NCBI RefSeq assembly: GCF_000969985.1
Contig: NZ_CP009526.1
Coordinates: 806,001-870,000, forward strand
From: Methanosarcina barkeri str. Wiesmoor
GTDB lineage: Archaea; Halobacteriota; Methanosarcinia; Methanosarcinales; Methanosarcinaceae
Direction of reading: 5' to 3'
Length of the DNA: 64,000 bases
Every line of letters starts with the position of its first letter. Position 1 is the stretch's first letter. The notes under the pieces were generated by a model that saw nothing but the letters and a program-made list of their open reading frames with translations, was not told where the DNA came from and did not search any database. Below, in pieces: positions 29,182 to 58,918 of the stretch. The translations under genes and the position numbers were made by a program.

Positions 29182-30183
29182 TTACCACCACATAACCAGA
29201 GGCTTATATTCCTCTGCTCCCAAAACATGCTTTGAAAGCTTATATAGCTCAAGCCGTATAAGCCGTTTGTAAGAGACACTCTGGTTCAGACCTTTGTGTT
29301 TGATAGTGGTCTTAAGTTTTTCATCGTATTCTTTAAGGAAGATTTTCTTCCCTTTTTCGCTAAGCAGCATATTCCCTATCTCTCCCCGGAAGCAGTTGCC
29401 GCCAAGCATGTTTTTGTTGACCAGTTTGAAAATGATCCTGTCTACCAGAATAGGCTTGAAAATCTCACTAACGTCAAGAGAAAGAGAAAATCTTCGCTCA
29501 AAAGGCTCATGCAGGTATGAAATTGTAGGATTAAGTTGAGTATTATAAATCTCGGAGAGAGTAGTGGAATAGACTAATGAATTTCCGAAACTTATGAGTG
29601 TATTCATTTTGTTTTCTGGTGGTCTTCGGGTGCGTTTTATTATTCTGTATTCCTCTGGGAAAATCTCATCAAGTGCGTTATAATAAAGCTCTCGGATTTT
29701 CCCTTCAGTTCTCATCATCGAAGGGACTGCTTTTGCACCCTCAAGGCAGGAAAGTTCTGACTCTATAGAAGTTGCATAACTTTCGATTGCTTCCTGAATA
29801 TCCTCTCTATTCCTTGCATAGTACCTGAGATTCCTCAGGATATTCCCACAGGCACCCTCAATAAATTTTCCAGCCAGATAGAGTCGTCTTTCAGGGTTAA
29901 GGTAATGTTCTGCCTGTTGAATGACCAGATCTCCGCTGATAAGAGTTTCCCGTGGATACATTGAGCCCTCATAGAAACCGTAATAATTGAAAAAATGAAT
30001 TGGAATACCCTCTTTAGAAAGGTAAGAAACGACCCCTGATGAAAAAGAAAGGTTTCCATAAGCAAAGATCGAACTGATTTTATTTATAGGAAGGATCTTC
30101 CTTCCCTCTTTATTCTCAAAATAAACCGTATTTTCTTTTCTCTTTAAAATTCCGTCCTGTAGAATATAAAAATCTTCTCTTAT
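29182..30183 (-). CDS. cas1: Cas1 integrase with apparent ATA start
   Basis: A 333-residue spacer integrase. Active-site regions are intact: Glu in [13 protein letters not shown] and His in [19 protein letters not shown] with the following acidic residues. An internal ATG (29961) begins only at MYPRETL, but the frame continues upstream through [18 protein letters not shown] and [16 protein letters not shown], the normal Cas1 N-terminal beta domain. The only codon at the right place is ATA (30181-30183), seven bases after GGAGG. No ATG, GTG or TTG lies between it and the in-frame upstream stop. A G-to-A change of the start codon, or real AUA initiation, is implied. Confidence 0.9.
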
Positions 30184-30224
30184 TTTTTTACCTCCTCTAG
30201 CATTTCATTAATTTTTTTGCTTTT

Positions 30225-54818: not shown

Positions 54819-56456
54819 TTGAAAAACACGTTCATCCTTGGAATCGAGGGCACTGCCTGGAACCTGAGTGCCGCAATCGTGACCGAAACCGAGATTATTG
54901 CCGAGGTCACAGAGACCTACAAACCCACGGCCGGTGGGATTCACCCCAGGGAAGCAGCCCAGCATCATGCAAAGTACGCAGCCAGCGTTATAAAAAGGCT
55001 TCTTGCAGAGGCAAAAGAGAAGGGAGTCAAGCCTTCAGATATTGACGGGATAGCTTTTTCCCAGGGACCTGGGCTTGGGCCGTGCCTGAGGACGGTTGCA
55101 ACGGCAGCCAGAATGCTTTCCATATCCCTTGGCATTCCACTTATAGGTGTCAACCACTGCATTGCTCATATTGAGATTGGGATCTGGAGAACTCCTGCAA
55201 TGGACCCTGTCGTTCTTTACGTAAGTGGGGCCAATTCTCAGGTTATTTCCTATATGGGAGGGCGGTATAGAGTCTTTGGGGAAACCCTGGATATAGGGCT
55301 TGGAAATGCCCTTGATAAATTTGCGCGAGGGGCTAACCTACCGCATCCCGGAGGGCCAAAGATTGAGGCATACGCAAAAAACGCAACGAAATATATCCAT
55401 CTTCCTTATGTGATAAAAGGCATGGACCTTTCCTTTTCCGGACTTTCCACGGCAGCCAGTGAAGCCTTGAAAAAAGCTCCTCTTGAAGATGTCTGCTATT
55501 CTTACCAGGAAACAGCTTTTGCAATGGTTGTTGAGGTTGCAGAGCGAGCACTTGCTCACACCGGAAAAAAAGAAGTCTTGCTGGCAGGAGGAGTTGGGGC
55601 GAACACAAGGCTCCGGGAAATGTTAAATGATATGTGCGAGGCCAGAGGCGCGAAGTTCTATGTGCCCGAAAAACGCTTTATGGGAGATAACGGGACAATG
55701 ATCGCATATACTGGGCTTCTAATGTATAAGTCCGGAAACACTCTTTCCCTTGAAGATTCTCGCGTAAATCCCAGTTACCGGACTGATGATGTGAAAGTGA
55801 CCTGGATCCAGGAAGAAAAGATGAAAAGAGTTCCTGAAATTTCCCCCGGAACTTCCCTCAAGCTTGGGGAACTGCTGGACAATGGAGCCGAGGCTATTGT
55901 TTACCTGGAAGAAGGGCCTGAAGGGAAGAAAATACTTGTTAAGGAAAGAGTCCCGAAGGCTTACAGGTATAAAGAGATTGATGAGAGGATCAGGACTGAA
56001 AGAAACCGGACAGAAGCCCGCTTGATGTCTGAATCTCGACGCCATGGGGTTTCTACGCCGATTATCTATGATGTGGAAGATTTCAAGCTTAAGATGCAGT
56101 ATATTGATGGTGTCCCCATAAAATACCTGGTTACTCCTGAGCTTTCAGAAAAAGTAGGAGAACTTGTAGGAAAACTACACAGTGCGGGTATAGTACATGG
56201 GGACCTTACGACCTCAAATATCCTGCTTGCAGGCGAGAGACTTTATCTCCTTGACTTCGGGCTTGCTTATTACGACAAAGGACTTGAGGCCAGAGGGGTA
56301 GACGTCCATGTACTTTTCCAGACTTTTGAGAGTACCCACCGCAATCATGAGGCCCTTATCGAAGCTTTCAAAAAAGGGTACCGGAGAACTTTTATAGATT
56401 CAGAGGATGTACTCACGCGTGTTGAAGAGATAAAAAAGAGGGCTCGTTATGCATAA
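54819..56456 (+). CDS. kae1: Kae1-Bud32 fusion (tRNA t6A synthase and kinase)
   Basis: A 545-residue fusion of KEOPS subunits that make N6-threonylcarbamoyladenosine at tRNA position 37. The Kae1 part (about 1-325) has GIEGTAWNLSAAIV, GGIHPREAAQHHA with the metal His pair, and GGVGANTRLREM. The Bud32 part (about 330-545) has VHGDLTTSNILL and LLDFGLAYYDK kinase motifs. TTG start with AAGGAG upstream. The 3' end overlaps the next gene by eight bases. Confidence 0.95.
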   Translation: MKNTFILGIEGTAWNLSAAIVTETEIIAEVTETYKPTAGGIHPREAAQHHAKYAASVIKRLLAEAKEKGVKPSDIDGIAFSQGPGLGPCLRTVATAARMLSISLGIPLIGVNHCIAHIEIGIWRTPAMDPVVLYVSGANSQVISYMGGRYRVFGETLDIGLGNALDKFARGANLPHPGGPKIEAYAKNATKYIHLPYVIKGMDLSFSGLSTAASEALKKAPLEDVCYSYQETAFAMVVEVAERALAHTGKKEVLLAGGVGANTRLREMLNDMCEARGAKFYVPEKRFMGDNGTMIAYTGLLMYKSGNTLSLEDSRVNPSYRTDDVKVTWIQEEKMKRVPEISPGTSLKLGELLDNGAEAIVYLEEGPEGKKILVKERVPKAYRYKEIDERIRTERNRTEARLMSESRRHGVSTPIIYDVEDFKLKMQYIDGVPIKYLVTPELSEKVGELVGKLHSAGIVHGDLTTSNILLAGERLYLLDFGLAYYDKGLEARGVDVHVLFQTFESTHRNHEALIEAFKKGYRRTFIDSEDVLTRVEEIKKRARYA

Positions 56457-57572: not shown

Positions 57573-58022
57573 TCATTCTTTCAGTTTATCTTTAAGTAGG
57601 CTAAGAGCTACACTGAGCTGGTTTAGACCCAGTTTCAGGGCAATAGTTATAATCCTATTGTTCGAAATATTGCTAAACTCTCTTTTGATTGCAAATAAAT
57701 CCATAATGCACTGCTGATCCAAAACGAGTGGCCCATCAAGCAGGTCTTTTGAGGTCGAATTCGGCTTTTGACCTTTGAACTCAACTTTCCTTTGCCCTAT
57801 ATTTATTCCACTATCCGATTTTGCAGTTCTTCCTGCGGCCTCAGGCCGTTCTGTCTTTTCTCCATAGAGGCATTCCATTTGCTGGAGACAGTGAGTCAGG
57901 CAAACACTCCTTATAAACTCTTCAACTTCCATACCACTGATGCCTGCATATTTCTTTATTTCAGCAAGCTGCTCTTCCGTAAAAGGTATACAGAGCAGAT
58001 TTTCGTTGCATTCTTCTTCTAT
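57573..58022 (-). CDS. hypothetical protein with apparent ATA start
   Basis: A 149-residue protein of unknown function. The first ATG is at 57932, but coding-like sequence continues upstream: NLLCIPFTEEQLAEIKKYAG joins ISGMEVEEFIRSV without a break, giving a plausible helix-turn element. The frame is open back to a TGA and contains no ATG, GTG or TTG there. ATA at 58020-58022 lies seven bases after GGAGG, as in cas1. The C-terminal half (VLDQQCIMDLFAIKREF, ALKLGLNQLSVALSLLKDKLKE) is helical. Not in an operon. Confidence 0.65.
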   Translation of the reverse strand: MEEECNENLLCIPFTEEQLAEIKKYAGISGMEVEEFIRSVCLTHCLQQMECLYGEKTERPEAAGRTAKSDSGINIGQRKVEFKGQKPNSTSKDLLDGPLVLDQQCIMDLFAIKREFSNISNNRIITIALKLGLNQLSVALSLLKDKLKE

Positions 58023-58171
58023 CCCAAATCCTCCATGTATTTTTCATTGTCTCTTGATCTTCTGTATTTAATTCTTTGGTGATTTATTCCTTTCTTCTTT
58101 GTTGTTTATGTTTTAATCTATTCTTTATCCTTCAAGTTTTCCTTTTATTTTGTTATTCTCAAAGTTGTCTT

Positions 58172-58228
58172 TAATCAAAAAGAATGTTAATCAAAAAGAA
58201 TGTTAATCAAAAAGAATGTTAATCAAAA
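58172..58228. repeat. 16-18-bp tandem repeat
   Basis: AATCAAAAAGAATGTT repeats four times upstream of the pilin-like gene. Confidence 0.85.
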
Positions 58229-58297: not shown

Positions 58298-58918
58298 GTG
58301 CGACATGTTACCTCTTGTATGAGAAATCTTGCTTCCGATACCACTGCTGCAGATACGATTCCTCTAAAACTCGTTGTGTATCTAGGTCTGCTTGCAGTTG
58401 TTCTAATTTTGGCGGTTCAGGCCTGGCATACCGTGAGTCCTGTTCTGGAAGAGGCGCAGATTAAATCTCAGGTTGAAGACGCTTCTCTGTCTATCCATTC
58501 AATTCAGGAAGGATATGCCAGAGATTCTGCTGAGAGTCACAGTCCTGAAGGGATAATGTGTACCCTCAAGTTTTCCTTTCCTGCTTCAGTCAGGTATATT
58601 AGCTTTGGAGTGGATCCTGATCCCGAATGTAATGGGCAACTGCACGATTCAGAATGGGTTCTTGAAAACAACACTATTATCTACCAATATAAAAACGGAG
58701 TTAAAAAGAGATTATTTCTTGAAGGAAAGCCGGTACACTTTATAAAAGGCGAGCAGGATTCTGAAGGAATATGGATGCCTTCAGGGAGCCAGGAAAATTC
58801 TCTGACGCCTTTATCTCTTGAAAAAACGGGAGTTGTAATTGAGTACCCGGTTTCAGGAGAATTTGTGTTGGAGCTAGTCATGCAGAACGGGATAAGGTAT
58901 TCCATGTCTCATTTTTGA
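58298..58918 (+). CDS. pilin-like secreted protein
   Basis: A 206-residue protein with one N-terminal hydrophobic helix (LKLVVYLGLLAVVLILAVQAW) preceded by a short polar leader, the layout of archaeal type IV pilin-like proteins. The rest is extracellular, with a predicted beta-rich body (TLKFSFPASVRYISFGVDP, VVIEYPVSGEFVLELVMQNG). GTG 58298 opens the frame, and ATG 58319 is an alternative; neither has a good SD. Function unknown. Confidence 0.6.
   Translation: MRHVTSCMRNLASDTTAADTIPLKLVVYLGLLAVVLILAVQAWHTVSPVLEEAQIKSQVEDASLSIHSIQEGYARDSAESHSPEGIMCTLKFSFPASVRYISFGVDPDPECNGQLHDSEWVLENNTIIYQYKNGVKKRLFLEGKPVHFIKGEQDSEGIWMPSGSQENSLTPLSLEKTGVVIEYPVSGEFVLELVMQNGIRYSMSHF

Follow-up and report, generated by a model that had tools for sequence, protein, structure and literature searches.

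A rare AUA codon as the probable start of a ribbon-helix-helix gene conserved in Methanosarcina

Results

The window analyzed here is a stretch of 64,000 nucleotides from the genome of Methanosarcina barkeri str. Wiesmoor. Its minus strand carries a gene of 149 codons (57573-58022, stop included) for a ribbon-helix-helix (RHH)-type protein, delimited by its reading frame, its orthologues and the codon-position bias of its substitutions. At the 5' end of this gene lie a Shine-Dalgarno (SD) sequence GGAGG (58030-58034, minus strand), a seven-base spacer ATTTGGG (58023-58029, minus strand) and the codon ATA (58020-58022, minus strand), the inferred start codon. Reading in frame from the ATA, a conventional start codon is first reached at an internal ATG (57930-57932, minus strand), which encodes Met31. 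An in-frame stop codon, TGA, is located 5' of the ATA (58044-58046, minus strand), and the window sequence contains no ATG, GTG or TTG in frame between the two. A preliminary description of the window had reported that GGAGG, seven bases and ATA open the gene ending at 57573 in place of a normal start, and that cas1 has the same arrangement. Both observations were verified on the minus strand, the elements of cas1 being GGAGG at 30195-30191 and ATA at 30183-30181.

Where flanking sequence is available, the RHH gene usually lies tail-to-tail with the genes for Ham1 and a Kae1-Bud32 fusion (KEOPS) and head-to-head with a pilin-like gene; none of these three neighbors was found at four loci (L017, L020, L033 and L036). 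The Kae1-Bud32 fusion of the window (54819-56456, plus strand) starts with TTG and is another gene that retains a weak start. The pilin-like open reading frame (ORF; 58298-58918, plus strand) is called from a GTG at 58298. Of the 14 sequences examined, only that of the window itself has a conventional start codon at this place in the alignment, so translation probably begins at an in-frame Met farther downstream. A perfect 16-bp tandem repeat of 3.6 copies (58171-58228; unit TTAATCAAAAAGAATG) is located 5' of the RHH gene, and among 247 loci searched the exact unit occurs only in loci of this genome. The leader of the RHH gene contains a purine-rich block, AAAAGGAAAACTTGAAGGAT (58127-58146, minus strand), common to many orthologues at approximately 105-125 bases upstream of the start. 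The exact block occurs once in the genome, all other matches having two or three mismatches. It may lie near the transcription start and could be an operator or a leader element. RNA structure prediction gave a z-score of -0.06 for the leader and no consistent pairing at the start.

The RHH gene is present in a single copy. It was detected in 22 of the 39 genomes of a first search, all of the same genus as the window, and is present in 28 of 30 genomes of that genus, including all 23 of good quality. Across the class, 25 of 149 genomes carry it, and these belong to just 2 of 31 genera. Among named genome contigs, a scan located 17 loci, 16 of them titled Methanosarcina. Pooling of two ortholog searches yielded 39 genes, and collapsing the 12 with a duplicate coding sequence left 27 distinct orthologues. 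At the start site, 25 of these have ATA, one has ATT (L019/L035) and one has ATG (L030). GGAGG is present in all 27, and the spacer is seven bases long in 26 and eight in one (L037). Pattern searches for the start sites of three homologues from the second genus (G084, G131 and G138) returned none at the expected places among the matches listed. Since relatives across the genus have kept the rare start, it is probably a genuine signal, and a sequencing slip is unlikely.

Coding constraint begins 3' of the ATA and not 5' of GGAGG, as revealed by Fitch changes per site counted on a tree built from the 27 distinct orthologues. Codons 7-30 changed 31, 16 and 107 times at positions 1, 2 and 3, respectively, so that third positions account for 107 of the 154 changes. 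The pattern is like that of codons 31-50 (20, 13 and 62 changes), and codons 7-30 are therefore constrained protein-coding sequence. The 24 bases before GGAGG changed 3-11 times each without triplet periodicity (phase sums of 55, 52 and 49). GGAGG itself shows no substitution on the tree (26 members with the seven-base spacer), and the ATA changed 0, 0 and 2 times at its three positions. Codons 2-6 are variable among orthologues, and the other isoleucine columns are mixtures of ATA, ATT and ATC that vary more than the ATA site. A conserved ATA beside variable codons therefore resembles a start codon rather than an isoleucine codon. The earlier claim of coding-like sequence 5' of the first ATG is thus borne out by the constraint on codons 7-30, and the same constraint in the orthologues speaks against homologues that start at the internal ATG, the outcome that the preliminary description had named as fatal to its proposal.

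Residues 5-56 (57855-58010, minus strand) are predicted to adopt the strand-helix-helix RHH fold of the Arc/MetJ/CopG type. Modelled with AF2, residues 1-56 gave a pLDDT of 85.8, and nearly all matches of this model in the PDB are RHH DNA-binding proteins. The named matches, TacA1, AtaR, KacTA, AmrZ, PutA, CopG and Arc, have VIA Z-scores of 5.7-7.2 and an rmsd of 1.3-3.2 over 43-52 residues; a Z below 8 may, by the caveat of the tool, reflect merely a common arrangement; here, the matches point to a single fold. The best Foldseek E-value was only 0.39, with a probability of up to 0.99. Sequence searches of the PDB gave no E-value below 0.39, and NCBIfam gave no match above its cut-off. The Pfam NikA-like family (PF21983), also an RHH family, matched with 23.3 bits, below its curated cut-off of 27, and it matched 10 of 18 members with an E-value of 0.1 or better. 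The strand is unassigned in the 56-residue monomer model and assigned to residues 9-12 in the full-length model. The latter is poor (mean pLDDT of 51), and a fold search with it was uninformative. Towards the C terminus it hints at another possible strand-helix-helix unit (residues 99-131; 57630-57728, minus strand), a low-confidence assignment from the secondary structure of this model. The protein resembles a DNA-binding regulator rather than an initiation factor.

The arrangement of GGAGG and ATA is uninformative by itself; what rises above chance is that orthologues of the RHH gene have kept it at the start site. GGAGG-N5-9-ATA occurs eight times in the window, compared to 8.7 expected from shuffles. 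The preliminary description had proposed a genome-wide scan, and an excess was not found: 588 matches compared to 607 for a reversed control pattern. Taken alone, this outcome counts against its proposal of AUA as a tolerated start. In 1.2 Mb of the genome, GGAGG-N6-8 is 1.61-fold represented before ATG and only 0.70-fold before ATA. The genome-wide motif count is, however, blind to a handful of real sites among approximately 590 chance ones.

A pairwise scan compared 1.2 Mb of this genome (G000) with 1.2 Mb of a second (G013), covering 501 ORF pairs. Upstream of the first conventional start conserved in a pair, the codon shared by both ORFs at the same distance from GGAGG was ATA in four cases, ATT in four and AAA in three, among others. 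By count no codon class stands out, and ATA with GGAGG is not enriched in these pairs. A relaxed scan of the same genomes, which accepted any SD of at least four bases and required at least eight codons upstream of the earliest conserved conventional start, found an identical ATA five times, three of them with more than 60% downstream identity. The three survivors were the window gene, an APH-family gene and an ORF overlapping an rRNA operon; the last has three near-identical copies in the genome and was dropped as an artefact. Start codons are identical in 174 of 181 G000-G013 pairs, and an exact GGAGG precedes 33 of the 181 conserved conventional starts. Its presence in both conserved ATA genes and in cas1 is only suggestive of an association, since two of the three ATA genes were found by searching for GGAGG.

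Comparing species can reveal non-standard starts where motif counts are blank, and other candidates were noted in the same genomes. An ORF of G000 (C2, 878078-880306, plus strand; L084/L085) likely begins at CUG: in this genome and in G013 it has a conserved CTG with GGAGG at seven bases, and the sequence ahead of its earliest conserved conventional start looks coding. A minus-strand ORF of G013 (B5515) has an ACG with GGAGG at eight bases, its G000 orthologue has ATG with the same SD, and ACG is a possible start. In the G000-G013 scan, A5351 has an ATA six codons 5' of a conventional start.

The APH-family gene is located in G000 at C2:338618-339577 (minus strand; Pfam APH, 4.2e-11). In three genomes of three species an ATA follows GGAGG by six or seven bases, and the aligned codon in three other close orthologues with a readable start is ATG, TTG and TTG, a comparison that leaves out a broken seventh match (G012) and paralogues of approximately 50% identity, which have no start-like codon at the aligned place. 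In cas1 (coding sequence 29182-30183; GGAGG-N7-ATA at 30181-30195, minus strand), the frame read from the ATA matches Pfam Cas_Cas1 (6.2e-86) over residues 6-288. The sole close relative found (L162, G025; 77-78% identity) belongs to another family of the order, and its codon aligned with the ATA is TTG. The 13 other genomes of the genus that were searched gave distant matches only (21-29%) or no match. This distribution suggests that cas1 was acquired by horizontal transfer. Comparison thus points to an AUA start in at least three genes of this genome, and in one of the three this start is kept throughout the genus.

Discussion

The results presented here indicate that the AUA at 58022-58020 is very probably a genuine but rare start codon of the RHH gene. 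There is good support for the suggestion that this organism tolerates AUA as a start: ATA is kept in 25 of 27 orthologues across the genus, and in two further genes it aligns with an ATG or TTG at which relatives start. The favored reading, with a probability of roughly 0.85, is that the gene starts at AUA by means of a strong SD and the ordinary initiator Met-tRNA and that its product has an N-terminal RHH DNA-binding domain.

Translation could instead begin at Met31, with the conservation upstream of it due to something else. Met31 is invariant in 18 aligned proteins and in all 27 orthologues, and it is the first conventional start in frame. However, codons 7-30 evolve as coding sequence, and no SD is apparent ahead of Met31: GGAG, GAGG, AGGA and AGGT are absent, as checked by eye, from the 20 bases before its ATG. 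In addition, the RHH domain is predicted to have its strand and first helix within residues 1-30, and a start at Met31 would therefore remove half of the domain and break the fold. Such a start is very improbable. Scarcely more credible is a conventional start farther upstream, with the ATA as an internal isoleucine codon. In-frame ATG, TTG or CTG codons do occur upstream in 6 of the 27 orthologues, but the remaining 21, including that of the window, have no in-frame ATG, GTG, TTG or CTG there. GGAGG would also fall within the gene, the upstream frame lacks codon periodicity, and the additional spacer base in L037 breaks that frame.

Termination-reinitiation or frameshifting from a short overlapping upstream ORF is also improbable, if slightly less so. 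The ATA overlaps a stop codon (ATAG or ATAA) in 25 of 27 orthologues, and in 10 of 27 the ATG of a short ORF lies five codons before this stop, as in the window (ATG GAG GAT TTG GGA TAG). That ATG is missing in the other 17, however, and the overlapping stop is absent from L030 and L019, which have ATG and ATT, respectively, at the start site. Moreover, the TAA or TAG arises automatically from an ATA followed by a purine at +4.

Initiation at the AUA itself would proceed as follows. GGAGG would pair fully with the anti-SD sequence, setting the AUA at a spacing of seven bases, and this strong, exactly spaced SD would hold the small subunit at the codon. The rRNA region of the genome contains the anti-SD GGATCACCTCCT, in a stretch which we take to be the 3' end of 16S rRNA. 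The initiator Met-tRNA (anticodon CAU) would then start on AUA despite the mismatch at the third position, and the protein would be expected to begin with Met. All four CAT tRNAs in the 1.2 Mb sampled, a quarter of the genome, were called tRNA-Met by ARAGORN, which does not separate initiator from elongator tRNA-Met in these calls; this sample gave no hint of a special initiator tRNA. The position of the coding start, the genus-wide ATA at that site and its exchange with ATG, TTG and ATT at start sites are shown by comparison of genomes, and the ordinary initiator tRNA seems the likely agent of initiation.

The proposal that the AUA start is used for low expression is plausible: by analogy with bacteria, the third-position mismatch would lower initiation efficiency, and selection would keep the regulator scarce. 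AUA is thus possibly a deliberately weak start signal. A competing explanation of this regulatory part, and a tenable one though somewhat less likely than not to be right, accepts AUA as the start and attributes its retention to neutral drift. The change count at its third position is ordinary. The A at this position changed twice, and with invariant Lys, Glu and Gln columns of the same gene as a proxy for neutral A-to-G change, 4 of 10 such columns changed no more than twice; selection for weakness is therefore unproven, and retention of the A is not beyond the reach of drift. The APH-family gene also exchanges ATA, ATG and TTG among species, and cas1 has ATA where its relative has TTG. On the other hand, the better ATG is one transition away and occurs in only 1 of 27 orthologues, and an analysis of how start codons evolved in 36 prokaryote groups describes, in its available text, selection towards AUG (PMC5622118). 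The starts of the neighbors are ATG in 20 of 20 for Ham1, and TTG in 10 and GTG in 2 of 12, never ATG, for Kae1-Bud32. A selected weak start and tolerated drift are of similar weight on this evidence.

A far more speculative reading, which we consider improbable, is that the AUA start is a built-in gauge of start-codon stringency that feeds back through the RHH regulator on its targets. It is motivated by the neighboring KEOPS genes and by the restraint that t6A places on non-AUG initiation in yeast. KEOPS makes the t6A modification on ANN-reading tRNAs. In yeast, loss of t6A nearly doubled the number of non-AUG starts, according to the available part of that report (PMC4717488). If the gauge reading were true, a drop in stringency (low t6A or altered aIF1) would lead to more AUA initiation and more RHH regulator, an archaeal counterpart of infC-type start-codon control.

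To our knowledge, gene finders in archaea generally permit only ATG, GTG and TTG, and sometimes CTG, as starts. With ATA omitted, the RHH gene would therefore be annotated 30 residues short, without half of its DNA-binding domain, or missed. In its available text, a review of archaeal initiation gives AUG, GUG and UUG as starts, and neither AUA nor AUU appears there as a whole word (PMC7531240). Ribo-seq of M. mazei assigned ATG, TTG, GTG and 5% CTG to unannotated small ORFs, and the whole words ATA and AUA occur zero times in its main text (PMC11456600). These archaeal non-AUG starts share SD-led initiation with the window gene, but not AUA (PMC7531240, PMC11456600). An ATG-to-ATA mutation is mentioned for an engineered archaeal strain in the accessible portion of another article (PMC11834397). 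The literature searched yielded no earlier description of a natural archaeal gene that starts with AUA, a weak absence given that the subscription literature lies mostly outside the search. A conserved AUA start is known in bacteria, and the genus-wide archaeal case appears to be new within the literature searched.

With respect to fold, the window protein is like NikA-like and Arc/MetJ RHH proteins in its predicted N-terminal domain and its weak match to the Pfam NikA-like family, and unlike them in falling below the Pfam cut-off, in its long, matchless C-terminal half and in its restriction to two genera. With respect to initiation, the infC gene of Escherichia coli starts with AUU. It is a case of IF3 autoregulation, as summarized in a study of Staphylococcus aureus (PMC13009471, available text). 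Its likeness to the window gene lies in a conserved rare start codon, kept in infC for a regulatory reason and here possibly so; infC encodes a codon-discriminating factor, whereas the window protein looks like a DNA-binding regulator instead. The closest precedents, as far as the available text of the same study goes, are ccpN (AUA), cvfC1 (AUU) and infC (AUA) of S. aureus, which combine an AUA or AUU start with a strong, well-spaced SD, as seen here (PMC13009471). In reporters, AUA and AUU starts gave approximately 10% of the expression from AUG, and ccpN up to 30% in rich medium (PMC13009471). The rare starts of ccpN and cvfC1 are kept among related species, like that of the window gene, and at least one of the S. 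aureus genes, ccpN, encodes a transcriptional repressor (PMC13009471). In the window gene, likewise, AUA or AUU is kept among orthologues and a strong, well-spaced SD is conserved. The S. aureus cases differ in being bacterial, with IF3 and longer SD pairing, and their starts were measured by ribosome profiling and reporters, whereas the start described here is predicted from sequence comparison (PMC13009471). An AUA start kept throughout a genus offers, much as infC and ccpN do in bacteria, a natural test site for start-codon discrimination in archaea, including the contributions of aIF1, t6A and SD strength.
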